A stretch of 64,000 nucleotides of DNA from Chamaelirium japonicum (taxonomy: Eukaryota; Streptophyta; Magnoliopsida; Liliales; Melanthiaceae). The stretch covers positions 32,270,209-32,334,208 of the forward strand of contig OX393557.1 of NCBI GenBank assembly GCA_947650365.1, in the 5' to 3' direction. Positions 30,313-63,080 of the stretch are shown piece by piece (position 1 is the stretch's first letter; each line of letters opens with the position of its first letter). A program made the translations under genes and the position numbers. The notes under the pieces were generated by a model. It made no database searches. It was not told the origin of the DNA and saw nothing but the letters and a program-made list of their open reading frames with translations.

Positions 30313-30329
30313 CACTACAAGAAAGAGGG

Positions 30330-31075
30330 TCTTTACCGACGGACATTATTATCACCGTCGGTAATAATAAACTTTTTACCGACAGTGACTATAATATCCG
30401 TCGGTATTATAACTTCAATTTTTTAAATTTTTTTTGCACATTTATTACCGACGGTCAAATAGATTTCGTCGGTAAAATGATTTATACCGACGGTACATAT
30501 ATGTCCCGTCGGTAATATACTTTATACCGACGGCTACATAAATACCGTCGGTAAAATGTCACGACGAAACTCAGGGTAAAAACCGGCCTCTGAAAAAAAA
30601 TGTGACCCTGAGTTTCGTCGGCGAGTTTTACCGACGGACTTTATATGGCCGTCGGTATAACTAATTATACCGACGGAAATTTTATGGCCGTCGGCACGAT
30701 ACCGACGGTAATTAAATATCCGTCGGTAAAATTGTCCCGACGAAACACAGGGTAAAAACCGAGCCTCTGGAAAAAAATGGAACCCTGAGTTTCGTCGGTG
30801 ATTGTTACCGACGGACGTTATATTTCCGTCGGTATAACTAATTATACCGACGAAAATTATATGTCCGTCGGTACGATACCGACGGTAAATAAATATCCGT
30901 CGGTAAAATTGTCCCGACGAAACTCAGGGTGAAACCCGAGCCTCTGGAAAAAAATTGGAACCCTGAGTTTCGTTGCTGATTTGTACCGACGGAAATTATA
31001 CTACCGTCGGTATAAAGTAATTATACCGACGGAATTTATAAGTTCCGTCGGTAAAAACCCGTCTAATTTACCTAA
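30330..31075. repeat. Left subterminal region with three foldback units
   Basis: TACCGACGG and its complement recur about every 20-40 bp. Within this, a unit of about 177 bp repeats three times (starting near 30,561, 30,738 and 30,915). Each contains CGACGAAACTCAGGG and, after a 30-40 nt spacer, its complement CCCTGAGTTTCGTCG, so each can form a hairpin. Confidence 0.9.
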
Positions 31076-31079
31076 CAGC

Positions 31080-31326
31080 CACCCCTTTTCTTTTTCTGTT
31101 TCGACCGAATCCGGCGCCCCTCTCTGAATCTCTCTCTCTCTCTCTCACCGATCGACCCGACCCGTCCGGCGACCCCGTCCCCCTCCGGCAGCCGCGCGAT
31201 CCCCTCCGGCCACCTATCCCCCTCCCGGCCACCCATCCCCCTCCCGACCTCCGCCCCTCCCCGGCCTCCCGACCCTCTCTCTCTCTCTCCCCGGCCTCCT
31301 CCCCCCCTCCCCGGCCTCCCTAGCCT

Positions 31327-31363
<37 letters not shown>

Positions 31364-32578
31364 CCTCCCCTCACCTCTCTCTCTCTCTCGATCTAAACCC
31401 CCCCTCCGGCCGACCACCCATCCCCTCCCTTGCACCTCCGGCCACCCCTCCCCTTTCTCGCGCCACCGACTGCGACACCAGTTCTCCTCCTCCTTCTCGA
31501 GGCCTGCCGACCATCGCTGGTGAGCTCCTCCTCCTCCTCCCTTTCCCCCTTAGGTTAATTTGTTCCAAATTGTATACTAAAGTTTGAAATGTTATCTTAT
31601 CAAAATTGCATACTAATTTTGTCATCTACGTACTGAATTTCCTTATGAAAATTGCATACTTATTTGATAATTTTTATCTTATCAAAACTGAATTGAATGG
31701 GGGGAATCGAATGGGAATGTATCCATTCATACGATTCATTCATATGAGTTATTATCATACGATTCATATGAGTTATTCCAATTCATTCATATGAGTAATT
31801 TTTATCTTATCAAAACTGGTTAATTCCCTAATTTGGTAATTTTTACACTGTTTTAAAACTCGCCGAGTCGACTCGAAACTCGGCCGAGTCGACTCGACTC
31901 GGTCCAAAACTCGAGTTTCGATCCGACTCGGCTGAGTTTCGATCCGACTCGAGTTTTGTCGGGTTTTAGCCGAGTTGTCGTGTCTACTTGACTCATTAAG
32001 GTTTCGAGTCGAGTCGAGTTTTCGTGTTTTAAAACATTGATTTTTATCCTATCAAAACTGAATTGAATGGGGGAATGGGGGGCAAAATGTAGTTTTTAGA
32101 CTAGGGTGAGCGTCGGTTTTGTCGGTCGGTTTCGGTGTGGGTTTTGTCGGTTATATTTTTTTCGGTTTACGAAAAATCAAAACCGAAACCGAAACCGAAA
32201 CCGAAATGGTCGGTTTTTGTCGGTTCGGTGTGATATGAGGTATGCTAAAGCTATAAATCTACTCGAGCGACAGAGAGAACCGTCAGACCCCAAGTGTTTA
32301 CTTGATGAGGCTCCCTGACTTGTTGACTTACTGTCGCATAACTTTGGTGTTATGCCTAGCATTCGAACTATCAGCAGTTCAAATGCTGGCCAACAACCCT
32401 AGGTTTACTATGTGACTAGTCTACTCATCATAATACACTCATCCATTAGGGATGTGGATGGCCTGTAGAAGTTTTGGTTTTTGGTTCGGTGTTCCATACC
32501 CGGGAACCGAAACCGAAATTGTGCGGAGTCTTATAACATTGTTTGAAATTATATGTCAGGTGTTGTATAGCCAGATAG
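31080..32578 (+). other. CACTA 5' leader region
   Basis: A C-rich, CT-repeat-rich stretch (31,100-31,540) resembling a transcribed leader is followed by AT-rich sequence. Two low-complexity patches follow: GAGTCGACTCGG motifs at 31,860-32,000, and CGGTTT / AACCGA motifs at 32,105-32,235 and about 32,465-32,515. No gene is supportable. The open frames over the C-rich part are Arg/Glu or Pro low complexity. Confidence 0.6.
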
Positions 32579-35500
32579 ATGAAGATATCTTCGATCGATA
32601 AGAGTTGGATGCGTAATTCGAATCGCATGAGCCAAGAGTACAGAGAAGGAGTCAGGAAATTTCTGGATTTTGCATTTGAGCGTCTTGCACCGCTTGATGG
32701 AAAAATTGTGTGTCCCTGTATAGACTGCGGAAGGGTGATTAGGAAGGTTCGAGAGGAATGTGAGGTTGATCTGGTAATGCGTGGCATTGACATTAGCTAT
32801 ACCCGTTGGTTCTCGCACGGTGAGGAGCTAGATGCAGTCCCCATGGCAGCTCACGGTGAAACTTCAAACACAGTGATCGCTGATGATAATATTAATACAG
32901 ACGATGACGATGACATGCAGGGTATGATACATGATTTGCAAGGTGGAATAGGCACGAAAACACCGTCAGGTGATCAGCCCAATATCGAAGCGGACAAGTT
33001 CTAAAGATTGCTTAAAGATGCCGAACAAGCTCTATACCCGGGGTGTGAGAAGTTTTCAAAACTCTCTTTCATTGTAAAGCTTCTTTATTTGAAGTGCCTC
33101 AATGGTTGGAGTAATAAGTCATTTAATATGTTGATAGAGTTGCTGAAAGAGGCTTTTCCTATGGGTGAGACAGTACCGAAATCATTCTACAAGGCAAAGA
33201 AGACAATTAAAGATCTCGGTCTGGGTTATGAGAAAATTGATGCATGCGTGAACGATTGTATGTTGTACCGGAAAGAGTACGAACATGCGCGGTCATGCCA
33301 CATATGCGGAGCAACGAGATATAAAGAGACGGATGCCGAGTCTAGTACCAGTCGAAGGAAGAAAAATGTATCTGCAAAGGTTCTCCTATACTTCCCGCTC
33401 AGGGATAGGCTTCAGAGGTTGTTTATGTCATCGAAGACTGCTGAGCACATGAGGTGGCATGCACGAGAACGTACAGATGACGGGATTATGAGACATCCGA
33501 CCGACTCTCTGACGTGGAAAGATTTTGATCATACCTATCCTGAATTCGCATGTGAAGTTCGCAACGTCAGGTTCAGGCTTGCTAGCGATGGCTTCAATCC
33601 CTTTGGGAATATAAGTGTGTCGTACAGCATTTGGCCAGTTGTCCTAGTTCCATACAATTTGCCTCCCTGGATGTGCTTAAAAAAGCCATACACAATGCTC
33701 TCCTTGCTCATTCCCGGACCCAGGTCGCCTGGTAATGATATTGACGTTTACTTGCAGCCGTTGATTGAGGAGTTGAACGAGTTATGGGAAGTTGGGGCCG
33801 ATACGTATGATGCCTCGTTGCGCCAAAATTTTCAGATGCATGCGGCACTTCTATGGACCATCAACGATTTCCCTGCATATGCCAACTTATCCGGGTGGAG
33901 TACTAAAGAAAAATTGGCGTGCCCTACATGCAATAAGGAGACAGATTCATTACGGTTGAAGAACGGAGGCAAGTTCTGTTATATGGGCCATCGAAGATTC
34001 CTTGTTGACGGCCATAAGTGGAGGCAGAACAAAAGAGCTTTCAACGGCAAGAAGGAACTTGCAAAGGCCCCGGAGCAGCTTTCGGGGGTAGAAGTCTTGT
34101 GCAAATTGGATCAGCTTGATGCCGTGGCACTTGGAAAAGGTAAAAAGAAGAGAACGCATGAAGATTCTACGCGTGAGCATAACTGGAAGAAGAAGAGTAT
34201 TTTCTTTAAACTACCGTACTGGAGCAGCCTACTCTTGCGGCATAACTTGGATGTTATGCATATCGAGAAAAATGTGTGTGACAACATTATAGGAACACTG
34301 CTGAATCTCGACGGTAAGACGAAGGATAATCTTAAATCTCGTCTCGATCTTAAGGAGTTGGGCATCCGAAAATCACTTCATCCCCAAGAGATTGGGGATA
34401 AGTATGTGTTGTCAGTTGCATGCTACACCATGAGCTCACAGCAAAAGGCAGCCTTATGTGCATTCCTACGGTCTGTGAAAACGCCAGACGGTTATTCTTC
34501 GAATATCGCACGATGCGTGCAAGAGAACGGTCGGAAGTTGTCTGGATTAAAGAGCCACGATTGTCATGTTCTTATGTAGCGATTGTTATCTCTTGCTATA
34601 CGTGGAAATTTAACCGAACAGCTGTCCGGTCCGTTAATTGAGCTCAGCACTTTTTTCAGACAGTTGTGCTCGAAGGTACTTAGAGTTGACCAACTTGAAC
34701 AGATGGAGAGGGATATTGCGCTCACATTGTGCAAGTTAGAGATGATATTTCCACCTTCATTCTTTGATGTCATGGTGCATTTGACCGTTCACTTGGCAAA
34801 TGAGGCCAAACTCGGCGGCCCAGTTCATTACCACTGGATGTATTTTATCGAGAGGTAATCGTCTCGTCTCATTCGCACAATGTATTTGATCGTTCTTGAT
34901 ATATTCATCCAAATATTTTTTTCTCAAATTAGGTACTTGCGAACATTAAAATCATATGTTCGTAATAAAAGTCGTCCGGAGGGATCAATTGCTGAAGGAT
35001 ACCTAGCAGAAGAATGTCTAACATTCTGCTCAAGATACCTACATGGTATAGACACGCGATTCAATCAACTTGAGCGGAACTATGACGGTGGTCCAATAGA
35101 CTTCGATGGGGGTCTGTCTATATTTGCCGAAATGGGTAGACCTGTAGGAGGAGGCAAAACCCGTCGATTGTCTGTAGATGAGATTCAACAAGCACAAATG
35201 TATGTGTTGCGCCAATGTGATGAAGTGTGGCCATTCATTGAGTAAGCATTTTACGATCATTTACTCATTCTTTCAGTCCATTCATTAAGTATATGTGCTA
35301 ATTATAATCTAATTCATAACCGGTAAAACAGGAAGCATAAAGCCATCATTAATAATCGGGGTACTCGAAATGCTCCCCAAATTTATGATTGTGAATTCCC
35401 ATCGTGGTTCGAGAAACACGTAAGTATTCACATCATTACTTAATTTCATTGACATCCATTACCGAACAATAATTATGTGTTCATATCATAAATGTCATGT

Positions 35501-36186
35501 GGTTATTATAGGCACAAGAGCTGCACGACAACCACGATCCGCTGATAAAAGAGGATCTCTGGCGCTTATCTTGTAGTCCTTTGCAAGACGCAATATCGTA
35601 CGATGTTTATATCGTGAACGGTTATAGATTTCGGACGAAAGATAGTGAAAAATCACGAAGAACCCAAAATAGTTGGGTTGTCGTCAATGGTGAGCAAGAA
35701 GAATTAGAAAATATCGACTTCTACGGCGTCCTCAACGAGATTCTCGAGATTAAATTCCTTGGCCAAAATCGGATCGTATTATTCAAATGCGATTGGTATG
35801 ATGTTAATAATCGCGGGACTGGTTATAATGTCGACAAATACGGTTTTATCAGCATCAACACTGGCAAGAGATTGAATACCCAATATGAAGATCCATTCAT
35901 TCTTGCCTCTCAAGCGCAACAGATATTTTATGCACCGGATAATACCTCTCCAGGTTGGCAAATTATAGTCAGATCACCACCCAGAGATTTTTATGACATG
36001 GGAGACAAGGATGCGGGGGTCGTCGATGATGATTTGGATGCATACCAGAATGATGAGATAATCATTGTCGACGCAGTGCACGATGAAAATGAAGATGTCG
36101 ACAATATAAACTGGACAACGAATGCAGATCAAATAATAGAAGAGGGAAGCGATGAGAGTGACAGAGATGAGACAGAAAATGACTAG
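32579..36186 (+). pseudogene. TNP2-type CACTA transposase with two nonsense codons
   Basis: Four exons with GT-AG introns (32579-34854, 34933-35241, 35332-35419, 35512-36186) give a 1,115-codon frame, normal for this family. It begins MKISSIDKSWMRNSNRMSQEY (given here only as the start) with a Cys-rich transposase-associated domain (CPCIDCG; WFSHGEE). The TNP2 core has CHICGATRY, MRWHARERTDDGIMRHP, FRLASDGFNPFGN and NLDVMHIEKNVCDNI. It then continues through a DUF4218-like part (FFDVMVHLTVHL, YMFIERYLRTLK-type block) to a DUF4216-like C-terminus (LFKCDWYD, QAQQIFYAPD) and an acidic tail. Only two changes break it: TAA at 33,002-33,004 and TAG at 34,577-34,579 (a Gln codon in relatives). It would bind and cut the element ends. 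As read it is inactive, but only just. Confidence 0.9.
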
Positions 36187-36189
36187 ACC

Positions 36190-36350
36190 GTATTTAAATC
36201 AAATTGTTTCATATTTAAATCAAATTGTTTCATATATAAATCATATTGTTTCATATGTATATCATATTGTTTCATATGTAAATCATACTGTTTCACCGAT
36301 TCATATGTAAATCATACCGTTTCATATGTAAATCATACTGTTTCACCGAT
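36190..36350. repeat. Minisatellite, GTTTCATATGTAAATCATACT type
   Basis: About seven imperfect units of roughly 20 bp (TTTCATATGTAAATCATA core) directly after the transposase stop. The same minisatellite recurs on the other side of the left satellite array (39,265-39,470), so it brackets that array. Confidence 0.85.
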
Positions 36351-36354
36351 TTAC

Positions 36355-39262
36355 GATCCGATCGATTCACCGATTTAGAGTCTAAGTGTTGGAAAATCAT
36401 AAGTTAGCGTGTTTCGGATATGAAATAGGTTTGGATTCGATCGGATCGTCAACGGATCGGCATCCGATAATTCGAACTTGGGATTATTCCGTATTTTGGA
36501 CTTGCGATCGGGTTCTAATTGGATATTTGACCAATTTATGATCCGATTCACCGATTTAGAGTCTAAGTGTTGGAAAATCATAAGTTAGCGTGTTTCGGAT
36601 ATGAAATATGTTTGGATTCGATCCGATCGTCATCGGATCGGCATCCGATAATTCGAACTTGGAATTATATTCCGTATTTCGGACTTGCGAGTGGGTTCTA
36701 ATTGGATATTTGACCAATTTACGATCCGATTCACCGATTTAGAGTCTAAGTGTTGGAAAATCATAAGTTAGCGTGTTTCGGATATGAAATAGGTTTGGAT
36801 TCGATCCGATCGTCATCGGATCGGCATCCGATAATTCAAACTTGGAATTATATTCCGTATTTCGGACTTGCGAGCGGGTTCTAATTGGATATTTGACCAA
36901 TTTACGCTCCGATTCACCGATTTAGAGTCTAAGTGTTGGAAAATCATAAGTTAGCGTGTTTCGGATATGAAATAGGTTTGGATTCGATCCGATCATCATC
37001 GGATCGGCATCCGATAATTCAAAGTTGGAATTATTCCGTATTTCGGACTTGCGAGCGGGTTCTAATTGGATATTTGACCAATTTACGATCCGATTCACCG
37101 ATTTAGAGTCTAAGTGTTGGAAAATCATAAGTTAGCGTGTTTCGGATATAAAATAGGTTTGAATTCGATCCGATCGTCATCGGATCGGCATCCGATAATT
37201 CGAACTTGGAATTATTCCGTATTTTGGACTTGCGAGCGGGTTATAATTGGATATTTGACCAATTTACGCTCCGATTCACCGATTTAGAGTCTAAGTGTTG
37301 GAAAATCATAAATTAGCGTGTTTTGGATATGAAATATGTTTGGATTCGATCCGGTCGTCATCGGATCGGTATTCGATAATTCGAAGTTGGAATTATTTCG
37401 TATTTCGGACTTGCGAGCGGGTTCTAATTGGATATTTGACCAATTTACGATCCGATTCACCGATTTAGAGTCTAAGTGTTGAAAAATCATAAGTTAGCGT
37501 GTTTCGAATATGAAATAGGTTTAGATTCGATCCAATCATCATCGGATCGGCATCCGATAATTCGAACTTGGAATTATTCCGTATTTCGGACTTACGAGCG
37601 GGTTCTAATTGGATATTTGACCAATTTACGCTCCGATTCACCGATTTAGAGTCTAAGTGTTGGAAAATCATAATTTAGCGTGTTTCGGATATGAAATAGG
37701 TTTGGATTCGATCCGATCGGTATCGGATCGGCATCCGATAATTCAAAGTTGGAATTATTCCATATTTCGGACTTGCGAGCGGGTTCTAATTGGATATTTG
37801 ACTACTTTACGATCCGATTCACCGATTTAGAGTCTAAGTGTTGGAAAATCATAAGTTAGCGTGTTTCGGATATGAAATATGTTTGGATTCGATCCGATCG
37901 TCATCGGATCGGCATCCGATAATTCGAACTTGGAATTATATGCCGTATTTCGGACTTGCGAGCGGGTTCTAATTGGATATTTGACCAATTTACGATCCGA
38001 TTCACCGATTTAGAGTCTAAGTATTGGAAAATCATAAGTTAGCGTGTTTCGGATATGAAATAGGTTTGGATTCGATCCGGTCGTCATCGGATCGGCATCC
38101 GATAATTCAAACTTGGAATTATATTCCATATTTCGGACTTGCGAGCGGGTTCTAATTGGATATTTGACCAATTTACGCTTCGATTCACCGATTTAGAGTC
38201 TAAGTATTGGAAAATCATAAGTTAGCGTGTTTCGGATATGAAATAGGTTTGGATTCAATCCGATCGTCATCGGATCGGCATCCGATAATTCGAAGTTGGA
38301 ATTATTCAGTATTTCGGACTTGCGAGCGGGTGTTCTAATTGGATATTTGACCAATTTACGATCTGATTCACCGATTTAGAGTCTAAGTATTGGAAAATCA
38401 TAAGTTAGCGTGTTTCGGATATGAAATAGGTTTGGATTCGATCCGATCGTCATCGGATCAGCATCCGATAATTCGAACTTGGAATTATTCCGTATTTCGG
38501 ACTTGCGAGCGGGTTATAATTGGATATTTGACCAATTTACGCTCCGATTCACCGATTTAGAGTCTAAGTGTTGGAAAATCATAAGTTAGCGTGTTTCGGA
38601 TATGAAATATGTTTGGATTCGATCCGATCGTCATCGGATCGGCATCCGATAATTCAAAGTTGGAATTATTCCGTATTTCGGACTTGCGAGCGCGTTCTAA
38701 TTGGATATTTGACCAATTTACGATCCGATTCACCTATTTAGAGTCTAAGTGTTGGAAAATCATAAGTTAGCGTGTTTCGGATATGAAATAGGTTTGGATT
38801 CGATCCGATCGTCATCGGATCGGCATCCGATAATTCGAACTTAGAATTATTCCGTATTTCGGACTTGCGAGCGGGTTCTAATTGGATATTTGACCAATTT
38901 ACGCTCCGCTTCATCGATTAAGAGTCTAAGTGTTGGAAAATCATAAGTTAGCGTGTTTCGGATATGAAATAGGTTTGGATTCGATCCGATCGGCATCGGA
39001 TCGGCATCCGATAATTCAAAGTTGGAATTATTCCGTATTTTGGACTTGCGAGCGGGTTCTAATTGGATATTTGACCAATTTACGATCCGATTCACCGATT
39101 TAGAGTCTAAGTGTTGGAAAATCATAAGTTAACGTGTTTCGGATATGAAATAGGTTTGGATTCGATCCGATCGTCATCGGATCGACATCCGATAATTCGA
39201 ACTTGGAATTATATTCCATATTTCGGACCTGCGAGCGAGTTATAATTGGATATTTGACCAAT
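36355..39262 (-). repeat. Left 181-bp satellite array (about 16 monomers)
   Basis: The AGAGTCTAAG motif recurs every 181-182 bp from 36,376 to about 39,096. Monomers carry CGATTTAGAGTCTAAGTGTT, TTAGCGTGTTTCGGATATGA, a CGATCCGATCGTCATCGGATCG palindromic block and GGATATTTGACCAATTTACG. Copies differ by a few substitutions and 2-bp indels (ATATTCCG versus ATTCCG). Orientation is opposite to the right array. The 68-codon frame inside each monomer is a by-product of the repeat. Confidence 0.95.
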
Positions 39263-39264
39263 TA

Positions 39265-39470
39265 TAACTGTTTCATATGTAAATTATACCGTTTCATATG
39301 TAAATCAAATTGTTTCATATTGTTTCATAAATCATACTGTTTCATATGTAAATCAAACTGTTTCATATAGTTTCATATGTAAATCATACTGTTTCATATG
39401 TAAATCAAATTGTTTCATATTGTTTCATATGTAAATCTTACTGTTTCATATGTAAATTAAACTGTTTCAG
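39265..39470. repeat. Minisatellite, second block
   Basis: Same CATATGTAAATCATACTGTTT units as at 36,190, about ten copies. It ends in ...CTGTTTCAG immediately before the ATG of the second transposon gene, a plausible splice acceptor. Confidence 0.85.
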
Positions 39471-41162
39471 ATGGCATCACAGTCATATGTTCGTAGAGGC
39501 AGGGGTGGGGCAGCTCGGAGCGCTCCGGCTGCCACCCCAGGGTCCGAGGCTGCGCCGTCCGGATCTGGTAGTGCTGCTCCTCTCTCCACACCAGCTCCTG
39601 ATGTAGTCGCAGCCTCCGAAGCTTCGAGCAGTGCTCAGCACTCGGCTACAGCGTCTACGCCCACAGGTAATGTTTAGATCTAAAGTTTTATACATGTTGT
39701 AAATACTTCTTCAGTACTGATGTATATTTTATTTGCAGCGTCGAGGATCACCAGGCACGTATGCGACCGGGGCGTGACGACGGCCCGGCGCTTGTCGGCC
39801 TTACACGAGCCGCTGTCCCTACAGTGGAGCGGCAGGACCTTTGTAGGCGAGCACGCTTCTGACGCCGCCATGTGGGTCGGCATTATAGTACGGGAGGAGA
39901 GGAATGCCCCGATTGTGGGGTTAAGGGGGTGGAAGAACATTGATGCATCCTATAAGGAGAGGATGTATCAGCAGTTTTTGGTACGTTAGTTTCATTAAAG
40001 CATTTTAGAATAATATCGTACTTCTTTATAATTTGATTTGATAAAATAACTTGTTTCTAAATTGATTTTATAGGAGAAATTTATATGGGAGAACATAAAA
40101 ACCGACACCCATCGGGAGGACTTGTGGAAGATGATGGGTGAGCGGTACAGGGATTACCGTCACAAGCTCTACCAGCTCTACGGTTACTTGGTCGGCCAGC
40201 CGGCTGAGGAGGTACAGGCTATGGCCGGGATGAGAGACGTGCCACCGCTACACGTTCTACAATTTTTGGTCGCTCACTGGGCCACCCCTAGCTTTCAGGT
40301 ATAATTATAATTTTGTTGATTCGTACTTGTTTTAATGTTATACTAAAAATTTGTATTGATGTTTCAAAATTTAATCGATTGACACAGAGGAAATCTGCTA
40401 TAGGCAAGCAGAATAGAAGTGCCTCGACGACACCTGCTCCAGTGAAGGGGAGGACCTCCATGCCCCAGCTTGCCCAGCAGCTGGTAAATGATACAAACAT
40501 TATTATTATTTAAAGCTTTATACATGTTATATTAACTCATCTATTTATTTTATATGTCCAACAGACACAGTCCTTGGGCCACGAGCCTAATAGGATTGAC
40601 CTTTTTGAGGCCTCTAGGAGGCGGCGTATCGATGGGGTATTTCTGGACGACATGGTTGCCTCACAAGAGGTAAGTAATTAAATTACTGTTAATATATTCT
40701 TATACATATGTCATAAAATATCATTGAATATCATTGGTTATTTTTATATAGGAGAGGATGCGACTTCTGGTGACCCCGTCGGGCGAGGCCGGCTCCTCCT
40801 CCAGCTCAGTATCTGTCGACTCAGCGATGGATACTGTGTTGAGACCTGCCACGCACGGTCGTGTCCTCTGTACGGGCCTTAGAGTTACACCCTCCTCCTA
40901 CTTTGGACGAGAGGGTATGCGCTCGAGAGCACGGGACACCCAGACCGGTGCTATCACTCAGCTGCAGTCTGCGCTAGACGCGGAGCGAGAGCAGAGGCAG
41001 GCCCTCGAGCAGAGGATTGAGGCAGAGCAAGAGCAGAGGCAGGCCCTCGAGCAGAGGGTTGAGGCGGAGAAGAAGGCCCTCGATAAGGAAAGAGAAGCTC
41101 GCAGGGAACTGGATAAATTTTATGAATTCATAAACCGGTCTAGCGGTGGCTCATCCTCATGA
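39471..41162 (+). CDS. Second CACTA gene, Transposase_24 (Ptta/En/Spm) type
   Basis: Six exons with GT-AG introns (39471-39666, 39739-39980, 40074-40298, 40388-40483, 40565-40669, 40752-41162) give an uninterrupted 424-residue protein. An Ala/Ser/Pro-rich disordered N-terminus (1-70) is followed by the Transposase_24 core. This includes an SGRTFVGEHA stretch, a WENIKTDTHREDLWKMMGER helix region and VAHWATPSFQ-RKSAIGKQNR. The C-terminus (about 345-405) is a Glu/Arg/Gln heptad-rich coiled coil with a duplicated EQRQALEQR segment. It corresponds in position to TNPA, the DNA-binding partner that holds the two transposon ends together in En/Spm. That exact role is inference. It sits between the inverted satellite arrays. 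Confidence 0.8.
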
Positions 41163-41166
41163 TCAG

Positions 41167-41592
41167 GTACTTACTAATCTTTATAATATTAGCAAAAAAT
41201 ATGAATCTTACTAATTTGAGTTTAGATCATATTATCACACTTATGATTTTCCAACACTTAGACTCTAAATCGGTAAATCGGATCGTAAATGGTCTCTCTC
41301 TCTCTCTCATGGTAATGATGTAGCCTCTGTTTTTCTTTTAAATGATAGAATTTTGTTTTTTAATCATGCTAGGTGTGTGCCTCGTTGGAAGAGAGATATC
41401 CCTCTCATGTGACATTTGTAATGGACACAACAATATGCCACCCAACGTAGTTCGATTTCTATCTCTGCAGTTATGCTGGCATACAGGTAAACTTTGACTG
41501 AAGCTTTATAAGTGCAAATTATTTTAAATTCACTAATGCAATAGGTACTTTTTACGATTATACAAAGAGAATATAGTAGAAAGATGTAATGC
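41167..41592. other. Spacer between second CACTA gene and right array
   Basis: Begins with a strong donor-like CAG|GTACTT at 41,164-41,172. Contains one partial satellite monomer at about 41,237-41,292, cut by a short CT run. The rest is AT-rich without a supportable gene. Confidence 0.6.
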
Positions 41593-44500
41593 CAACACTT
41601 AGACTCTAAATCGGTGAATCGGAGCGTAAATTGGTCAAATATCCAATTATAACTCACTCGCAAGTCCGAAATACGGAATAATTCCAACTTCAAATTATCG
41701 GATGCCGATCCGATGACGATCCGATCGAATCCAAACATATTTCATATCCGAAACACGCTAACTTATGATTTTCCAACACGTAGACTCTAAATCGGTGAAT
41801 CGGATCGTAAATTGGTCAAATATCCAATTAGAACCCGCTCGCAAGTCCGAAATACGGAATAATTCCAATTTCAAATTATCGGATGCCGATCCGATGACGA
41901 TCGGATCGAATCCAAACCTATTTCATATCCGAAACACGCTAACTTATGATTTTCCAACACTTAGACTCTAAATCGGTGAATCGGAGCGTAAATTAGTCAA
42001 ATATCCAATTATAACCCGCTCGCAAGTCCGAAATACGGAATAATTCCAAGTTCGAATTATCGGATGCCGATCCGATGACGATCGGATCGAATCCAAACCT
42101 ATTTCATATCCGAAACAAGCTAACTTATGATTTTCCAACACTTAGACTCTAAATCGGTGAATCGGATCGTAAATTGGTCAAATATCCAATTAGAACCCGC
42201 TCGCAAGTCCAAAATACAGAATAATTCCAAGTTTGAATTTTCGGATGCCGATCCGATGACGATCGGATCGAATCCAAACCTATTTCATATCCGAAACACG
42301 CTAACTTATGATTTTCCAACACTTAGACTCTAAATCGGTGAATCGGATCGTAAATTGGTCAAATATCCAATTAGAACCCGCTCGCATGTTCGAAATACGG
42401 AATATAATTCCAAGTTCGAATTATCGGATGCCGATCCGATGATGATCGGATCGAATCCAAACCTATTTCATATCTGAAACACGCTAACTTATGATTTTCC
42501 AACACTTAGACTCTAAATCAATGAATCGGATCGTAAATTGGTCAAATATCCAATTAGAACCCGCTCGCAAGTCTGAAATACGGAATAATTCTAAGTTCGA
42601 ATTATCGGATGCCGATCAGATGACGATCCGATCGAATCCAAACATATTTCATATCCGAAATATGCTAACTTATGATTTTCCAACACGTAGACTCAAAATC
42701 GGTGAATCGGATCGTAAATTGGTCAAATATCCAATTAGAACCCGCTCGCAAGTCCGAAATACAGAATAATTCCAAGTTTGAATTATCGGATGCCGATCCG
42801 TTGACGATCCGATCGAATCCAAACCTTTTTCATATCCGAAACACACTAACTTATGATTTTTCAACACTTAGACTCTAAATCGGTGAATCGATCGGATCGT
42901 AAATTGGTCAAATATCCAATTAGAACCCGCTCGCAAGTCCGAAATATGGAATAATTCCAAGTTCGAATTATCGGATGCCGATCCGATGACGATCCGATCG
43001 AATCCAAACATATTTCAAATCCGAAACACGCTAACTTATGATTTTCCAACACTTAGACTCTAAATCGGTGAATCGGAACGTAAATTGGTCAAATATCCAA
43101 TTAGAACCCGCTCGCAAGTCCGAAATACGGAATAAAATTCCAATTTTGAATTATCGGATGCCGATCCGATGACGATCGGATCGAATCCAAACCTATTTCA
43201 TATCCGAAACACGCTAACTTATGATTTTGCAACACTTAGACTCTAAATCGGTGAATCGGATCGTAAATTGGTGAAATATCCAATTAGAACCCGCTCGCAA
43301 GTCCGAAATACGGAATAATTCCAAGTTCGAATTATCGGATGTCGATCCGATGACGATCCGATCGAATCCAAACATATTTCATATCCGAAACACGCTAACT
43401 TATGATTTTCCAACACGTAGACTCTAAATCGGTGAATCAGATCGTAAATTGGTCAAATATCCAATTAGAACCCGCTCGCAAGTCCGAAATACGGAATAAT
43501 TCCAAGTTCGAATTATCGGATGCCGATCCGTTGACGATCCGATCGAATCCAAACCTATTTCATATCCGAAACACGCTAACTTATGATTTTCCAACACTTA
43601 GACTCTAAATCGGTGAATCGATCGGATCGTAAATTGATCAAATATCCAATTAGAACCCGCTCGCAAGTCCGAAATACGGAATAATTCCAAGTTCGAATTA
43701 TCGGATGCCGATCCGATGACGATCCGATCAAATCCAAACATATTTCATATCCGAAACACGCTAACTTATGATTTTCCAACACTTAGACTCTAAATCGGTG
43801 AATCGGATCGTAAATTGATCAAATATCCAATTAGAACCCGCTCGCAAGTCCGAAATACGGAATAATTCCAAGTTCGAATTATCGGATGCCGATCCGTTGA
43901 CGATCCGATCGAATCCAAACCTATTTCATATCCGAAACACGCTAACTTATGATTTTCCAACACTTAGACTCTAAATCGGTGAATCGGATCGTAAATTGGT
44001 CAAATATCCAATTAGAACCCGCTCGCAAGTCCGAAATACGGAATAATTCCAAGTTCGAATTATCGGATGCCGATCCGATGACGATCCGATCGAATCCAAA
44101 CATATTTCATATCCGAAACACGCTAACTTATGATTTTTCAACACGTAGACTCTAAATCGGTGAATCGGATCGTAAATTGGTCAAATATCCAATTAGAACC
44201 CGCTCGCAAGTCCGAAATACGGAATAATTCCAAGTTCGAATTATCGGATGCCGATCCGTTGACGATCCGATCGAATCCAAACCTATTTCATATCCGCAAC
44301 ACGCTAACTTATGATTTTCCAACACTTAGTCTCAAAATCGGTGAATCGATCGGATCATAAATTGGTCAAATATCCAATTAGAACCCGCTCGCAAGTCCGA
44401 AATACGGAATAATTCGTAGTTCGAATTATCGGATGCCGATCCGATAACGATCCGATCGAATCCAAACATATTTCATATCCGAAACACGCTAACTTATGAT

Positions 44501-45597
44501 TTTCCAACACTTAGACTCTAAATCGGTGAATCGGATCGTAAATTGGTCAAATATCCAATTAGAACCCGCTCGCAAGTCCGAAATACGGAATAATTCCAAG
44601 TTTGAACTATCGGATGCCGATCCGTTGACGATCCGATCGAATCCAAACCTATTTCATATCCGAAACACGCTAACTTATTATTTTCCAACACTTAGACTCT
44701 AAATCGGTGAATCGGAGCGTAAATTGGTCAAATATCCAATTAGAACCCGCTCGCAAGTTCGAAATACGGAATAATTCCAAGTTCGAATTATCGGATGCCG
44801 ATCCGATGACGATCCGATCGAATCCAAACATATTACATATCTGAAACACGCTAACTTATGATTTTCCAACACGTAGACTCTAAATCGGTGAATCGGATCG
44901 TAAATTGGTCAAATATCCAATTAGAACCCGCTCGCAAGTCCGAAATACGGAATAATTCCAAGTTTGAATTATCGGATGCCGATCCGTTGACGATCCGATC
45001 GAATCCAAACCTATTTTATATCCGAAACACACTAACTTATGATTTTCCAACACTTAGACTCTAAATCGGTGAATCGATCGGATCGTAAATTGGTCAAATA
45101 TCCAATTAGAACCCGCTCGCAAGTCCGAAATACGGAATAATTCTAAGTTTGAATTATCGGATGCCGATCCGATGACGATCCGATCGAATCCAAACGTATT
45201 TCATATCCGAAACACGCTAACTTATGATTTTCCAACACTTGGACTCTAAATCGGTGAATCGGATCGTAAATTGGTCAAATATCCAATTAGAACCCGCTCG
45301 CAAGTTGGAAATACGGAATAATTCCAAGTTCGAATTATCGGATGTCGATCCGTTGACGATCCGATCGAATCCAAACCTATTTCATATCCGAAACACGCTA
45401 ACTTATGATTTTCCAACACTTAGACTCTAAATCGGTGAATCGGAGCGTAAATTGGTCAAATATCCAATTAGAACCCGCTCGCAAGTCCGAAATACGGAAT
45501 AATTCCAAGTTCGAATTATCGGATGCCGATCCGATCGAATCCAAACCTATTTCAAAACCGAAACACGCTAACTTATCATTTTTTAACGCTTAGAATC
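41593..45597 (+). repeat. Right 181-bp satellite array (about 22 monomers), inverted to the left array
   Basis: TAGACTCTAAATCGGTGAAT recurs every 181-185 bp from about 41,596 to 45,418, the reverse complement of the left-array monomer. From about 42,500 on, marker variants recur every fourth monomer: ACGTAGACTC at 42,684, 43,413, 44,142 and 44,870, and the 4-bp expansion GAATCGATCGGATCG near 42,885, 43,618, 44,347 and 45,070. That gives a higher-order unit of about 729 bp. The GTTGACG/GATGACG variant alternates about every second monomer over the same stretch. Confidence 0.95.
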
Positions 45598-45639
45598 AGT
45601 TATAGATATAAACCATTTTTTTAACAAATACATGTTAAT

Positions 45640-45780
45640 TGCAGGAGCAGGGTGGCGTCAGGGGATCGATGAGAGCACCAGTGTTAGTGGCGGGCGGGGG
45701 TGGTTAAGATAGGGCGGCGTCAAGGGATCGATGAGAGCACCAGCGTTGGTGGCGGGCGGGGGTGGTTGAGATAGGGCATG
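45640..45780 (+). repeat. 63-bp tandem duplication after an acceptor-like site
   Basis: AATTGCAG|GAGCAGG at 45,637-45,651 looks like a 3' splice site. It is followed by two near-identical 63-bp units (GGGATCGATGAGAGCACCAG, then GGCGGGCGGGGGTGG) at about 45,654 and 45,717. This could be a terminal untranslated exon of the transposon transcript; that is inference. Confidence 0.6.
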
Positions 45781-46020
45781 TAGGGCATGTATAATCTCTC
45801 AGTTTTGGATTGTGTAAATATTATTTTGTAATATGTGGTTATTTTTTGTTCTTGTCTATAATTGTTGGGTACTGTGGTAATATTTGATAATTTGCTGTAA
45901 TTTTTTATCAATTTAGGTAATATTTTAAAATTTGCGGTAATATTTTATAAATTGTGGTATTGTTGTAAATCACAGGAATTAAATAACATTATTTAGGTAA
46001 ATTTATAAAAAAAAAACATA

Positions 46021-46437
46021 CTTATTACCGACGGACATGAATTATTCCGTCGGTAATAATGTTTTCATTTTTTTTAAATTATAAATAATTTGCCGACGGC
46101 ATATAATACCGTCGATAATATATATATTATTACCGACAATATATACCAACCGTCGGTAAAATGCTTATATATTACCGACGGATTATTAAGATTCGTCGAC
46201 CATAATATATTATATTAATTTTTAATTGAATAAATATGACCGACGGCTTTAATATTACCGTCGGTATTAATTATTATTACCGACGGTAATATTTGGTCCG
46301 TCGTATTGTTTTCCCCGACACCTTTTTTCCCGACAGCCGGCGACGGAAATGTCTTCCGTCGCTATAAACTATTACCGACGGAATGTTAATATTACCGACG
46401 GATATTTTTCGTCGGTAATAACTTTTTTTTTGTAGTG
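46021..46437. repeat. Right subterminal region of the CACTA element
   Basis: TTACCGACGG and CCGTCGGTAA motifs recur in both orientations up to the terminal inverted repeat. The three 177-bp hairpin units of the left side are absent here, so the two ends are asymmetric. Confidence 0.9.
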
Positions 46438-48407: not shown

Positions 48408-51400
48408 TGTTAAGTATCCAAATTAGTATTATTGTCTTTTCTTTTTCATGCATATCTCATCATTCTCTTGCGTAAAACATTCATATTACACATAAAATGC
48501 ATAAATTTATTTTCATCGTTGCATAGTACAATTTTGTATGAAAACATTGGTGTATTGGTTTCCATTCATACATTATCTGAATGGAAATACACAAAGACCG
48601 ATATTCAATTATTAATTTTACTATGTTTCACTATAAGGAACTGATGGGTATCATTTTATGTCTGTTTCGCAGTAAATGGGATCGTCATCTTAGCGTGTAG
48701 CTACTGTGGAGCGTGACTATACGGTGGGCATCATCACAATGCTTTGGTAGCGAACTTAAGACGCTCGCCAATGATCGACAAGCGGATGAACTAGCTTAAA
48801 AGAAGATGCAAATTATCGGAGCCCACAAAGGAGATTCTTAGCAAAACCGGCTCGCATACAACTCGGAAGTAAAGCATCAAGAAAACAAGACACATCCAAA
48901 CTCAGAGGACACCCAAGCTTGCCATCTTTTCTCTCTCTCATTTCCTTTTATCTTCATAAAGCACCCGGTCTCATAGCCATCTAACAGCTCAACCGGCTCG
49001 GTCTTGCACCCAACCTCTTGGCTATGAAGCATTGCACTTGAGCCCACTTTAAATCCCCTCCGATCCACTCTTTCCCATCCGGAGCTTGCATCACAGCCGT
49101 CCATGCCACCTAATCCCTCACATGCATGCACGTCCCAAACCCATCGATGCATTCATGCACGATCCCATCACATCCGTCCCTTTCCGACTCCCATACGCAA
49201 ACTCCATCCATAGCCATGTGCATGCATACATCCCGGCCATTAGATCCCATCTTAATTTCTTACTGAATTGTACCCATCCATTTTGCACAAACCCAATAAC
49301 CCATCAATTTACCAATGCATGCACATCCCTTGCATCCAAATGATCACAGCCCTCCATTGCATATATACAACCCATGCATGCATTAGTTCAGCCGTCCAGG
49401 CTGTCCAGCATACCCAAGTGACCCAACTCCCTCTCTTAATTGAATCTCAATCCCATTAAAGCCCAGTCATCCAATAACCCATGCAGCCGTCCCATACAAT
49501 TCAAAACTCATGCATGCATTACAGACATTCCAAGTTTAACCCATTCATGCGGTAATCGCAGTCGTCCCTTCCATGCAACATGCATGCATGCAAAAAAACC
49601 CACTTATCCTGACCCTACTCAAAACATAATCACAGCCGTCCGATTCACCCCAGTCATGCATGTGACCTCCCCTCCCCTCACCCGAAACGTCTCTCTCTAC
49701 TTTTTAATTAATCACAGCCGCCCATTCTACCTTGAACCCATACACCCCCTGCGATCTCTTCTCTCCTTCCTTTTCTCTTAATTGCAACCCGATCCAGCCA
49801 TGCATGCAAAATCACAACCGTCCCTTACCCTGATTGATACCCGTTTCTCTCTCTAAATCTTTCCTATTTTTTTCTCATGCGATCTTCCTTCCCTCTCTTT
49901 CCTTAACCGTCCAAGCACCCGACCCAGCCGCCTACCTCTCTCCTCTCCTATTCTCTCTCTAAAACCGTTTCTTTCTCTCTCCTTAATTCTCTCTATCTTT
50001 TTCCTTTCTTAACAACCCGGATCTCCTTTCTCTCTCTTCTTTATCTCTCTAGATCCCAACCGAGATCCTCCTCTTTCAAACCCAGCTGTACCCGGCCCTC
50101 TCTTCCTATCTTCGATCATGATTTATTCCCTATTTAATATCTTATTTACTCTTCTTTTTCCTTATTTAATTATCGTGCAAATCTCTCCCCCATATCTCTA
50201 CCCAACCGAAACCCTCTCTCTCCTCCAAATAAAACTTGCGAGATCCCTTAAGTTTCTCTCTTTTCTTTCCTATCATGCAGCCGTCCGTGCCATCTCACAC
50301 CGACCCAATCGCAGCCTTCCACCCTACCCAGCCCGGTTTCTTTCTTTTTCTCTCTTTCCATTTTCTCTCTCTGTTGCCTTATCTAAATCAACCAAACCCA
50401 GCCCTCTCTCTCCCTATTTAAAGGTTGGCCTGGAAGAGGGGGGACCGGAGAGAGAGGGAAGAGAACCGACCCACCCCTCCCGCCAGGGAGGGGCATGCAG
50501 TTTTTTTTAAGAGCTTTTTCACCATGATTCTGTAGAGAGAGTGCGAAGTGTGTGTGTGTTTGTTTGTAGTATTGTCCCGTTTATGAAAGAAGTTTTTCAA
50601 AGTAGTGGATGTAATTGTTTTTTTTTGATTTAATAAAAGTGTCTTTTACTTATAGTTTCTTATTCATTCATCTCTTTCTGCCATGCTTAATTTTATTAAA
50701 TATTCTGTATGCATTCATACCATGACCGACTAAATTCCCTCCCGCCAGGGAGAGGGGTTCGATGCCATAGTGAGTAGTTAGCTTTATTTTCTTACGTATT
50801 GCTCTCGATCTCGCTTAATGTATACGCCTCTCAATTAATTGATTTTAATTATGGAGAGCTAGCTCTCCCGTGTTTCCATTCAATTGGGATTCGGGTGATA
50901 CTTCACACTCCAATAGTTAATCATTGGTTGAATAGGCAAACTATTATTATTTTTATCTAATTTTCATTATGTCAATTTTCGCAATTGAGTACTAGTCTTA
51001 CTTCTTCACTATAAGAAGAATTCAATTCTTGAGATTGCGAGAATATTATATAATGAAATTAAATAAAGTGGACTTTAACTCTAAATTTTCCGCTTGAGAT
51101 GGTAAAACTTCCAATCTCAAGTGTAGATAAAGAGAGTAATATTGCAAGAGAGTTGACTTCGAACCATGATTTTTCAATCCCTGTCCTAGGCAGAATTCTT
51201 TTAAATTTCAGCAATGTCTTATGTTTTTATTTTTTTTATTCAATCTTTATTTCAGAAATGTCTTATGTTTTCTTTCTTGTTATTCAATCTTTATTTCAGA
51301 AATGTCTTATGTTTTTATTTTTATTATTCAATCTTTATTTCAGAAATGTCTTATGTTTTCTTTCTTGTTATTCAATCTTAAATTTTAGTAATGTCTTATG

Positions 51401-51809
51401 CTTTCTTGTTTTTTGTTATTCAATCTTTAATTTCATCAAATGTCTTATATTTTCTTTATTGTTATTCAATCTTTAAATTTCAGCAATGTCTTATATTTTC
51501 TTTATTGTTATTCAATCTTAAATTTCAGCAATGTCTTAATTTAAATTCTCTTCTTCTAAACTATTAATTTGAATCATTACTTATTAGCCTTTACTTTCTA
51601 AAATAAATTATTTACAAAATGATAAAAATACAAACTCCCTTCAATTCAATCTAGCTTCACTTGTGATATCTTCTTTAAGCCTTGCACTTACATGTGGTTC
51701 GATCCTTACTTGCCCTTTACTTTTAAAGTTCTCTGAGTTATGTATGCAGGTATTGGTTTTTGATAAATAGCTTTTACAACAACGACACAAAGAAAAAAGC
51801 TTTCTATCA
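48408..51809 (+). repeat. 5' LTR of the LARD element
   Basis: Contains a TATTTAAA promoter motif at 50,415-50,422, a GCATGCA- and CAGCCGTCC-rich middle, and an AATAAA signal at 50,632-50,637 about 215 bp past the TATA. Near its end is a tandem array of about 45-bp units (AATGTCTTATGTTTTC core, 51,210-51,540). The open frames inside it are present in both LTRs and have no protein-family resemblance. Confidence 0.92.
50415..50637 (+). promoter_or_regulatory. LTR core promoter and polyadenylation signal
   Basis: TATTTAAA at 50,415 followed by AATAAA at 50,632 defines a likely R region of under 200 nt. The same pair is present in the second LTR at about 55,932 and 56,149. Confidence 0.5.
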
Positions 51810-53914: not shown

Positions 53915-56900
53915 TGTTAAGTATCCAAATTAGTATTATTGTCTTTTCTTTTTCATGCATATCTTATCATTCTCTTGCGTAAAATATTCATATTACACAT
54001 AAAATGCATAAATTTATTTTCATCGTTGCATAGTACAATTTTGTATGAAAACATTGGTGTATTGGTTTCCATTCATACATTATCTGAATGGAAATACACA
54101 AAGACCGATATTCAATTATTAATTTTACTATGTTTCACTATAAGGAACTGATGGGTATCATTTTATGTCTGTTTCGCAGTAAATGGGATCGTCATCTTAG
54201 CGTGTAGCTACTGTGGAGCGTGACTATACGGTGGGCATCATCACAATGCTTTGGTAGCGAACTTAAGACGCTCGCCAATGATCGACAAGCGGATGAACTA
54301 GCTTAAAAGAAGATGCAAATTATCGGAGCCCACAAAGGAGATTCTTAGCAAAACCGGCTCGCATACAACTCGGAAGTAAAGCATCAAGAAAACAAGACAC
54401 ATCCAAACTCGGAGGACACCCAAGCTTGCCATCTTTTCTCTCTCTCATTTCCTTTTATCTTCATAAAGCACCCGGTCTCATAGCCATCTAACAGCTCAAC
54501 CGGCTCGGTCTTGCACCCAACCTCTTGGCTATGAAGCATTGCACTTGAGCCCACTTTAAATCCCCTCCGATCCACTCTTTCCCATCCGGAGCTTGCATCA
54601 CAGCCGTCCATGCCACCTAATCCCTCACATGCATGCACGTCCCAAACCCATCGATGCATTCATGCACGATCCCATCACATCCGTCCCTTTCCGACTCCCA
54701 TACGCAAACTCCATCCATAGCCATGTGCATGCATACATCCCGGCCATTAGATCCCATCTTAATTTCTTACTGAATTGTACCCATCCATTTTGCACAAACC
54801 CAATAACCCATCAATTTACCAATGCATGCACATCCCTTGCATCCAAATGATCACAGCCCTCCATTGCATATATACAACCCATGCATGCATTAGTTCAGCC
54901 GTCCAGGCTGTCCAGCATACCCAAGTGACCCAACTCCCTCTATCTCCCTCTCTTAATTGAATCTCAATCCCATTAAAGCCCAGTCATCCAATAACCCATG
55001 CAGCCGTCCCATACAATTCAAAACTCATGCATGCATTACAGACATTCCAAGTTTAACCCATTCATGCGGTAATCGCAGTCGTCCCTTCCATGCAACATGC
55101 ATGCATGCAAAAAAACCCACTTATCCTGACCCTACTCAAAACATAATCACAGCCGTCCGATTCACCCCAGTCATGCATGTGACCTCCCCTCCCCTCACCC
55201 GAAACGTCTCTCTCTACTTTTTAATTAATCACAGCCGCCCATTCTACCTTGAACCCATACACCCCCTGCGATCTCTTCTCTCCTTCCTTTTCTCTTAATT
55301 GCAACCCGATCCAGCCATGCATGCAACATTACAGCCGTCCCTTACCCTGATTGATACCCGTTTCTCTCTCTAAATCTTTCCTATTTTTTTCTCATGCGAT
55401 CTTCCTTCTCTCTCTTTCATTAACCGTCCAAGCACCCGACCCAGCCGCCTACCTCTCTCCTCTCCTATTCTCTCTCTAAAACCGTTTCTTTCTCTCTCCT
55501 TAATTCTCTCTATCTCTTTCCTTTCTTAACAGCCCGGATCTCCTTTCTCTCTCTTCTTTATCTCTCTAGATCCCAACCGAGATCCTCCTCTTTCAAACCC
55601 AGCTGTACCCGGCCCTCTCTTCCTATCTTCGATCATGATTTATTCCCCATTTAATATCTTATTTACTCTTCTTTTTCCTTATTTAATTATCGTGCAAATC
55701 TCTCCCCCATATCTCTACCCAACCGAAACCCTCTCTCTCCTCCAAATAAAACTTGCGAGATCCCTTAAGTTTCTCTCTTTTCTTTCCTATCATGCAGCCG
55801 TCCGTGCCATCTCACACCGACCCAATCGCAGCCTTCCACCCTACCCAGCCCGGTTTCTTTCTTTTTCTCTCTTTCCATTTTCTCTCTCTGTTGCCTTATC
55901 TAAATCAACCAAACCCAGCCCTCTCTCTCCCTATTTAAAGGTTGGCCTGGAAGAGGGGGGACCGGAGAGAGAGGGAAGAGAACCGACCCACCCCTCCCGC
56001 CAGGGAGGGGCATGCAGTTTTTTTTAAGAGTTTTTTCACCATGATTCTGTAGAGAGAGTGCGAAGTGTGTGTGTGTTTGTTTGTAGTACTGTCCCGTTTA
56101 TGAAAGAAGTTTTTCAAAGTAGTGGATGTAATTGTTTTTTTTCGATTTAATAAAAGTGTCTTTTACTTATAGTTTCTTATTCATTCATCTCTTTCTGTCA
56201 TGCTTAATTTTATTAAATATTCTGTATGCATTCATACCATGACCGACTAAATTCCCTCCCGCCAGGGAGAGGGGTTCGATGCCATAGTGAGTAGTTAGCT
56301 TTATTTTCTTACGTATTGCTCTCGATCTCGCTTAATGTATACGCCTCTCAATTAATTAATTTTAATTATGGAGAGCTAGCTCTCCCGTGTTTCCATTCAA
56401 TTGGGATTCGGGTGATACTTCACACTCCAATAGTTAATCATTGGTTGAATAGGCAAACTATTATTATTTTTATCTAATTTTCATTATGTTAATTTTCGCA
56501 ATTGAGTACTAGTCTTACTTCTTCACTATAAGAAGAATTCAGTTCTTGAGATTGCGAGAATATTATATAATGAAATTAGATAAAGTGGACTTTAACTCTA
56601 AATTTTCCGCTTGAGATGGTAAAACTTCCAATCTCAAGTGTAGATAAAGAGAATAATATTGCAAGAGAGTTGACTTCGAACCATGATTTTTCAATCCCTG
56701 TCCTAAGCAGAAATCTTTTAAATTTCAGCAATGTCTTATGTTTTTATTTTTTTTATTCAATCTTTATTTCAGAAATGTCTTATGTTTTCTTTCTTGTTAT
56801 TCAATCTTTATTTCAGAAATGTCTTATGTTTTTATTTTTGTTATTCAATCTTTATTTCAGAAATGTCTTATGTTTTCTTTCTTGTTATTCAATCTTAAAT

Positions 56901-57326
56901 TTCAGTAATGTCTTATGCTTTCTTGTTTTTTGTTATTCAATCTTTAATTTCATCAAATGTCTTATATTTTCTTTATTGTTATTCAATCTTTAAATTTCAG
57001 CAATGTCTTATATTTTCTTTATTGTTATTCAATCTTAAATTTCAGCAATGTCTTAATTTAAATTCTCTTCTTCTAAACTATTAATTTGAATCATTACTTA
57101 TTAGCTTTTACTTTCTAAAATAAATTATTTACAAAATGATAAAAATACAAACTCCCTTCAATTCAATCTAGCTTCACTTGTGATATCTTCTTTAAGCCTT
57201 GCACTTACGTGTGGTTCGATCCTTACTTGCCCTTTACTTTTAAAGTTCTCTGAGTTATGTATGCAGGTATTGGTTTTTGATAAATAGCTTTTACAACAAC
57301 GACTCATAGCAAAAAGCTTTCTATCA
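53915..57326 (+). repeat. 3' LTR of the LARD element
   Basis: A near-identical copy of 48,408-51,809, offset by 5,507 bp up to about 49,430 and 5,517 bp afterwards because of a CTCTATCTCC-type 10-bp insertion near 54,940. Ends in TATCA followed by the GCCAA target duplication. Confidence 0.92.
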
Positions 57327-62929: not shown

Positions 62930-63080
62930 CAGCTATAAATCGGAGGTGGAGCACTAGACTCGTTTTGTAACATCCGTCCTAAACACACAAGATATTGTCC
63001 GCTCGGTCTGTGCCCGTACGAGAACTTTTCAGGGATGTCTTGACTCTTGGCTATTAGATCTTGGTTGTCACACGTTTAAA
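62930..63080 (-). mobile_element. Possible LTR fragment
   Basis: TGTAACATCCGTCC and ACAAGATATTGTCCGCT are motifs that recur in plant LTRs. No pair, primer site or coding sequence was found nearby, so this is only a suggestion and the strand is uncertain. Confidence 0.3.

Follow-up and report, generated by a model that had tools for sequence, protein, structure and literature searches.

How does one satellite come to stand twice, in opposite orientations, inside a single transposon? The question is raised by a 64,000-bp stretch of the Chamaelirium japonicum genome (1.52 Gb, 3,253 contigs), the window of this analysis, which spans positions 32270209-32334208 of contig OX393557.1 (here C9). Its gene families and protein relatives read as those of a plant, and among the 120 relatives listed every one with an organism name comes from a plant. 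It contains a CACTA (En/Spm) element, copy A, in which two arrays of 181-bp monomers face each other across the second transposon gene, TNPA. We consider it likely that this satellite is resident transposon cargo, multiplied by transposition and resized by whole monomers, with a left array that probably comes from an older 3' array. The family looks like a high-copy CACTA (En/Spm) family of which the satellite is a part. The case for resident cargo follows from two fixed sites common to many copies and from length differences of whole monomers: common junctions were found at hundreds of places, arrays differ in whole-monomer steps, and monomers accompany the element wherever they were read.

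The element and its two opposed arrays

Copy A is laid out as follows (window positions, strand, description, source), with terminal inverted repeats abbreviated as TIRs, the target-site duplication as TSD and Tandem Repeats Finder as TRF.

30313..46437, plus strand, CACTA (En/Spm) element, copy A, 16,125 bp, with TIRs and TSD TGT/TGT
30313..31053, plus strand, left subterminal repeats with the ACCGACGG motif, 177-bp unit in 2.9 copies, CpG observed/expected 2.21
32579..36186, plus strand, TNP2-like transposase gene (Transpos_assoc, Transposase_21, DUF4218, DUF4216), Pfam and gene model
36191..36351, plus strand, 21-bp minisatellite on the outer side of the left array, TRF
36359..39263, plus strand, left 181-bp satellite array, 16 monomers, 7-monomer higher-order period, TRF
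39267..39469, plus strand, 21-bp minisatellite on the inner side of the left array, TRF
39471..41162, plus strand, TNPA-like gene, six exons, 424 aa (Transposase_24), gene model and Pfam
41163..41241, plus strand, 79 bp 3' of the TNPA stop, shared without change by copy C and holding the splice-donor-like CAG/GTACTTACT
41239..41290, minus strand, solo partial monomer where the 3' array begins in copies C and E, sequence comparison
41291..41591, no strand assigned, about 300 bp separating the solo monomer from the main right array, unmatched in copy C
41592..45597, minus strand, right 181-bp satellite array, about 22 monomers, opposed to the left, 4-monomer higher-order period, TRF
45598..46000, plus strand, post-array tail with acceptor-like TTAATTGCAG and a 62-bp repeat in two copies, TRF and comparison with copy C
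46000..46437, minus strand, right subterminal repeats and TIR, CpG observed/expected 3.19

The ends of the element are CACTACAAGAAA and CACTACAAAAAA; its TIRs begin with CACTA, as in the CACTA/En-Spm superfamily, and the 3-bp TSD is TGT on both sides. The subterminal motif ACCGACGG/CCGTCGGT occurs in both orientations, 11+11 times in the left 760 bp and 6+3 times in the right 480 bp, with 0 occurrences in 31101-45900. The first gene encodes a TNP2-type transposase (Pfam Transposase_21, E 4.6e-100) and the second a TNPA-type protein (Transposase_24, E 3.1e-14, exceeding the cut-off of the domain). Protein searches with the whole TNPA product and with residues 66-300 returned no relatives at E 0.001, for which we blame the word filter; Pfam does find the domain. 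The gene between the arrays had been described as intact in an earlier reading of these letters (the original prediction). This holds for TNPA of copy A, which reads openly across six GT-AG exons in the gene model, but the first gene, TNP2, carries two in-frame stops that are common to copy A and to copy B, a second copy on C9. An autonomous element would have both genes uninterrupted; the gene models place stops in TNP2 of copies A, B and C (a third copy on C9), and internal stops in TNPA of B and C, though not of A. Between A and C, the ratio of nonsynonymous to synonymous substitution rates is 0.75 for TNPA and 0.43 for the aligned part of TNP2. Taken together, these ratios and interruptions indicate that constraint on TNP2 and TNPA is weak or gone.

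TRF placed the left array at 36359-39263 (period 181, 16.0 copies, score 5156) and the right array at 41592-45535 (period 181, 21.7 copies, score 7036). The right array is the reverse complement of the left, the entire 2,905-bp left arm aligning at 94.4%. A monomer anchor matched 17 times on the left (plus strand) and 24 times on the right (minus strand), counts that become 16 and 22 without two out-of-register matches (36342 and 43275) and the solo fragment (41277). The arms total 6,911 of the 16,125 bp of the element (42.9%). Tandem-repeat calls, arm alignment, TIRs and TSD, together with the Transposase_24 domain between the arms, bear out the original prediction of two reverse-complementary 181-bp arrays of 16 and 22 monomers that flank the second gene of one CACTA element and make up over 40% of it. 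The left array begins 6.0 kb from the left end, embedded in a 21-bp minisatellite, and the right array stops 0.8 kb from the right end. Both lie inward of the subterminal repeats and not in the TIRs, where a foldback element (Tetris/FB) would have its arrays. As head-to-tail tandem arrays with many genomic copies they constitute satellite DNA.

The two arms are similar overall and differ in their internal organization. Among 15 left and 21 right monomers (partial ones left out), mean identity is 94.8% within the left array, 94.7% within the right and 94.3% between arms. The left array has a 7-monomer period: 5e-5 of 20,000 shuffles reach its lag-7 identity (0.014 when the best of all lags is taken). 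For the 4-monomer period of the right array, 1e-4 of shuffles reach the lag-4 identity. A single site separates the arms, with G in 16/21 right and 1/15 left monomers. In a tree of 37 monomers, L01 groups with 16 right monomers, and R13 and R17-R20 group with left ones; these mixed groupings suggest that the arms have partly separate histories and some shared types. Colinear block exchange between the arms was rejected, the true order of R17-R20 fitting the left array no better than other orders. Perfect matches between the arms reach 139 bp, and 2,620 of 3,983 right-arm 24-mers have a perfect complement in the left arm.

Comparison of the monomer with eight other stretches of the element gave no alignment above shuffles (smallest p 0.12), and derivation from another part of the element was therefore rejected. 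Alignment to the subterminal repeats was likewise not above chance (p 0.96 and 0.25), and the monomer had no match in IMG/VR. The arrays are rich in CpG (observed/expected 2.13 and 2.19), as compared with a median of 0.66 and a highest value of 1.04 in 1-kb windows outside the element. C-to-T and G-to-A singletons number 8 at 32 CG, 4 at 10 CHG and 7 at 32 CHH positions, and a methylation imprint was rejected for want of a clear CG excess.

Array sites and lengths across the genome

Pattern searches were run over the whole genome, with reversed-pattern controls giving 0 matches. A 31-mer of the monomer (up to 2 mismatches) matched 23,079 + 23,441 = 46,520 times, and a marker of the TNPA 3' end (up to 3 mismatches) 736 + 769 = 1,505 times. 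The left outer junction was found 263 + 296 = 559 times and the left inner junction 33 + 37 = 70 times, 60 of them exact. At 181 bp each, the monomer matches amount to 8.4 Mb, or 0.55% of the genome, which is a lower bound because the 31-mer matches just 9 of the 35 monomers of copy C. The ratio of 46,520 to 1,505 gives 31 monomers per TNPA 3' end, about the content of a single element. The search of the monomer against the whole genome that had been proposed for the locus thus finds it abundant, and the suggestion that a mobile element carries a satellite family is upheld by these matches and by four of four sampled loci lying in the CACTA family. The notion that the pair is peculiar to one element falls with the 559 outer junctions. 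As for the idea that the element might be seeding the satellite elsewhere, carriage by the element stands, but no independent blocks were seen, either in the 31 monomers per 3' end or in 74 probes of C9.

Junction spacing gives the lengths of left arrays. Pairing all 70 inner junctions with the 100 outer junctions listed (of 559) gave 31 pairs, and in 31/31 cases the two lie on the same strand and are separated by a whole number of monomers to within 0.1, ranging from 3 to 16. The window's left array, at 16 monomers, is the longest of the 31 measured; one more left array, on contig C1, comes to about 20 monomers by its distance to the TNPA end, a span that may include an insert. Also on C1, 16 of the 24 outer junctions listed have an exact TNPA 3' end on the same strand 2.5-5.5 kb downstream, and three of the other 8 lie beyond the TNPA 3'-end matches listed. 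Among the matches listed, the monomers form five clusters, all on C1, four of which adjoin an exact TNPA 3' end among those listed. At C1:421985-430153, monomers of both senses surround a TNPA 3'-end mark.

Further copies were read on C9, B from the stretch adjoining the window, C from 18 samples of 10 kb along the contig (1/18), and D, E and F from 74 probes of 400 bp at 1-Mb steps (3/74). All four array loci met by sampling (C, D, E and F) lie inside this CACTA family. Six 1-kb probes on C1-C6 contained no array. No megabase-scale block of monomers appeared in the 74 probes, which cover C9 only, in an assembly that may miss centromeres; the "centromere-like" label given to the satellite rests on monomer length alone.

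Copy B (C9:32342004-32358140) is 98.76% identical to A from end to end, with arrays of 16.0 and 22.1 copies. Its flanks also match those of A, at 98.9% over 3.6 kb and at 99.5% over 2.1 kb to the end of the compared sequence, so copy B is a local segmental duplication, 41.5 kb off start to start, and an independent insertion was rejected. Substitutions between A and B amount to 0.83% in the left flank, 0.86% in TNP2, 1.07% in the left array, 1.60% in TNPA, 0.89% in the right array (not counting a 181-bp gap on either side of the alignment) and 0.48% in the right flank. Monomer order is preserved, 37/37 having their best partner at the same position, one of them tied. CpG transitions make up 26 of the 65 array differences between the two copies. 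The duplicated stretch covers at least 26712-48506, repeated about 41.5 kb downstream at 98.8-99.5% and continuing to the end of the compared sequence.

Copy C (23.0 Mb) is more diverged, with TNP2 at 93.5% and TNPA at 89.7% to A where aligned. It is deleted from inside TNP2 to inside TNPA and has a single 3' array of 35 monomers, which starts and stops at the same sites as in A. Directly behind the TNPA stop, A and C agree at 79 of 79 bp, though TNPA itself stands at the 89.7% just given. On our reading of the letters, the older 3' array would begin with the partial monomer that stands alone at 41239-41290 in copy A. In copy D (21.5 Mb) the left array counts 6.7 monomers; TNP2 stands at 98.3% and TNPA at 95.7%, and the solo monomer is present. 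Copy E (49.5 Mb; its left part falls outside the sequence compared) has a 3' array of 30 monomers. An insert of about 2.6 kb (L106:650-3277) interrupts its TNPA, the flanks overlapping by 4 bp, as a TSD would leave.

At copy F (54.5 Mb), monomers account for 10,000 of 10,000 bp. Eight 100-bp probes around it met TNP2 at 54,480,001, monomer at 54,490,001 and the element tail at 54,510,001, with five lacking a match, and a left inner junction lies beside it at C9:54485721. Provided that the gaps between probes are array too, F reads as a CACTA copy whose right array exceeds 15 kb. A free satellite block at 54.5 Mb was rejected on account of the TNP2 and tail probes on either side and the left inner junction. 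In all five copies read there (A, B, C, E and F), the right array has one sense relative to the element, opposite to that of the left arrays of A, B and D.

Origin of the pair and rival explanations

A history that accommodates these observations would run as follows. The family would have had one array at a fixed site, between the TNPA end and the right terminal repeats, and this 3' array appears to be the older one. A large part of the family would carry a second, opposite array between TNP2 and TNPA, inside the 21-bp minisatellite. This left array was probably derived, going by the sequence, in a single inverted duplication of part of a right-type segment of the older 3' array. Array lengths would then have been altered by unequal exchange or slippage, each array acquiring its own higher-order period, and the pair would have been multiplied by transposition and, in the window, also by local segmental duplication. 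The greater age of the 3' array is suggested by copy C and by the state at the arm-separating site. Of the 35 monomers of the copy C array, 26 have G at this site, 4 have A, 5 a gap and none C; in A and B pooled, right arms have G in 32/42 and left arms C in 30/32. The simplest reading is that the arrays are passenger DNA, tolerated where the element is not translated.

Several observations weigh against this account. Polarity comes chiefly from one site and one outgroup copy, C, whose deletion takes in the left-array site and so leaves an ancestral pair possible, and which lacks a matching 3-bp duplication at its ends. A and B are near-copies and are counted twice in the pooled arms. High support is found on 0 of 34 inner branches of the monomer tree, the 4-monomer period of the right array is the weaker one (best of all lags, 0.11), and R17-R20 of the right array look like left monomers, yet their order matches the left array no better. 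Only five further array loci (B to F) were read, all on one contig, and the opposed pair was read directly only at A, B, F and C1:0.42 Mb. One cluster, C1:494458-498254, has no exact TNPA 3' end among the matches listed, and the ratio of 46,520 to 1,505 is compatible with free arrays elsewhere.

An independent satellite, for example a pericentromeric one, may have been captured repeatedly on either side of TNPA in opposite orientations. Belyayev and co-workers, in the available part of their paper, read a 171-bp array of Chenopodium quinoa as a capture (PMC8978399), and the lack of significant likeness between the monomer and eight other parts of the element fits such a source. Repeated capture nonetheless seems unlikely to us: one outer junction is matched 559 times and the arrays of A and C share their edges, so that a single event on each side is favoured, and the four hits among 74 probes and 18 samples on C9 all fell within elements. 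A single early capture of the 3' array is possible. The inverted pair could also be a product of mis-assembly, as assembled array lengths can in general be erroneous. This is very improbable; the arms differ in sequence and in higher-order period, left junctions recur at many loci, and the whole pair is present in copy B at 98.8%.

Other explanations grant the arrays a function. Judged from the letters, arms of opposite sense could pair in a read-through transcript of left array, TNPA and right array, and such a built-in hairpin might give rise to small RNAs that silence or tune the family. The recurrence of left junctions at 559 places, the single sense of right arrays in 5/5 copies and the perfectly complementary 24-mers are in line with this, and contiguous tnpD-tnpA transcripts are known from lettuce, according to the portion of PMC8195511 available. 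However, the arrays may be removed by splicing before pairing, and left arrays vary between 3 and 16 monomers, a spread that gives no sign of a length being maintained; we regard the hairpin as unlikely. Alternatively, the arrays may be extra cis-acting platforms for TNPA binding or methylation, resembling the TIR tandem repeats of Galileo with their transposase sites (a foldback-like element whose binding sites are cited in the accessible text of PMC4079207). Their CpG ratios approach those of the subterminal repeats and lie above all the 1-kb windows outside the element, and CpG transitions account for 26 of 65 array differences of A and B. Nevertheless, ACCGACGG is absent from the interior of the element, the monomer aligns to the subterminal repeats no better than chance, and singletons show no clear CG excess, and we give the platform little credence. 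There is likewise only a slim chance that a satellite wholly of transposon cargo has arms that bracket the regulatory gene and are kept as a hairpin or as CpG-rich repeats through which the element sets its own silencing. Resident cargo, with array lengths that change by whole monomers, is the preferred explanation.

Known satellite-bearing elements and neighbouring repeats

Satellite-bearing CACTA elements are already known from Chenopodium quinoa, and the opposed second array is the variant described here. Jozin, a CACTA-like element of that species, measures 16,523 bp and has 32.5 copies of a 171-bp monomer (5,550 bp) near its 3' end; the array occurs in several copies, and fluorescence in situ hybridization shows the satellite dispersed along chromosomes (PMC8978399, available excerpt). 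The element in the window resembles Jozin in size and in its array near the 3' end. It departs from the one array near the 3' end in all Jozin elements analysed, as that excerpt describes them, by the second, inverted array between TNP2 and TNPA. The monomers themselves are not alike, 186 of 200 shuffles scoring as high in a comparison of 169 of the stated 171 letters.

In Chenopodium, the tnp2 gene of a CACTA-like element is the source of the CficCl-61-40 satellite (monomer about 40 bp); this satellite and the Atenspm arrays of Arabidopsis, cited in the same source from Kapitonov and Jurka (PMC7320549, in the sections available), also tie CACTA/En-Spm elements to satellite arrays. Unlike CficCl-61-40, which those sections derive from tnp2, the 181-bp monomer shows no above-chance match to the tnp2 gene (p 0.12). 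Tetris, a foldback element of Drosophila virilis, is a further DNA transposon bearing tandem arrays: its TIR-220 arrays (about 220 bp) grow within the element, in both inverted ends (PMC4079207, available text). There, by that text, arrays lie within TIRs and complete copies have no conserved open reading frames (ORFs), whereas here internal arrays flank TNPA between ordinary CACTA ends. Two further CACTA elements are Tgmt* of soybean, a large one of 20.5 kb that has subterminal repeats and a transposase of the tnp2 type (PMC2613891), and LsC1 of lettuce, a genome with tnpD-tnpA pairs (PMC8195511); the partial descriptions at hand note no satellite arrays in either. Within the open-licence literature, as far as its accessible passages go and including PMC9659126 and PMC2756281, we found no CACTA element described with TNPA between two opposed satellite arrays.

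The family offers a system for how satellites are born, moved and resized. With common junctions and differing whole-monomer numbers, growth and shrinkage can be read for each insertion against the age of the element, and whether small-RNA silencing draws on inverted satellites could be tested naturally where opposed arrays enclose a regulatory gene. The family is also a warning that high abundance of a satellite does not imply that it forms blocks or marks centromeres.

Other repeats were met in the window and in the samples. A 23-bp tandem minisatellite (unit like ATTCGTACGATCCATTCTAATTC) occurs in 12 of the 74 one-megabase probes of C9 and in one of six probes elsewhere (samples L025, L042, L048, L049, L055, L063, L064, L080, L081, L093, L097, L098 and L100), and a short run related to it lies in the element leader at window 31730-31800. 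Two direct 3.4-kb repeats at 48408-51809 and 53915-57326, which are 98.9% identical, 2.1 kb apart and contain internal 44-bp tandem repeats, look like the long terminal repeats of an element with little coding capacity. ORFs for a reverse transcriptase like that of long interspersed nuclear elements lie on the minus strand at 9541-10794 (RVT_1, E 1.2e-23 at 10231-10794 and 0.001 at 9541-10215), and a piece of a transposase of the Mutator-like element type lies on the plus strand at 57838-58392 (E 5.7e-8). Degenerate TTAGGG/TTAAGGG-like repeats occupy 62373-63988, at about 32.3 Mb on the 74-Mb contig and distant from its ends.

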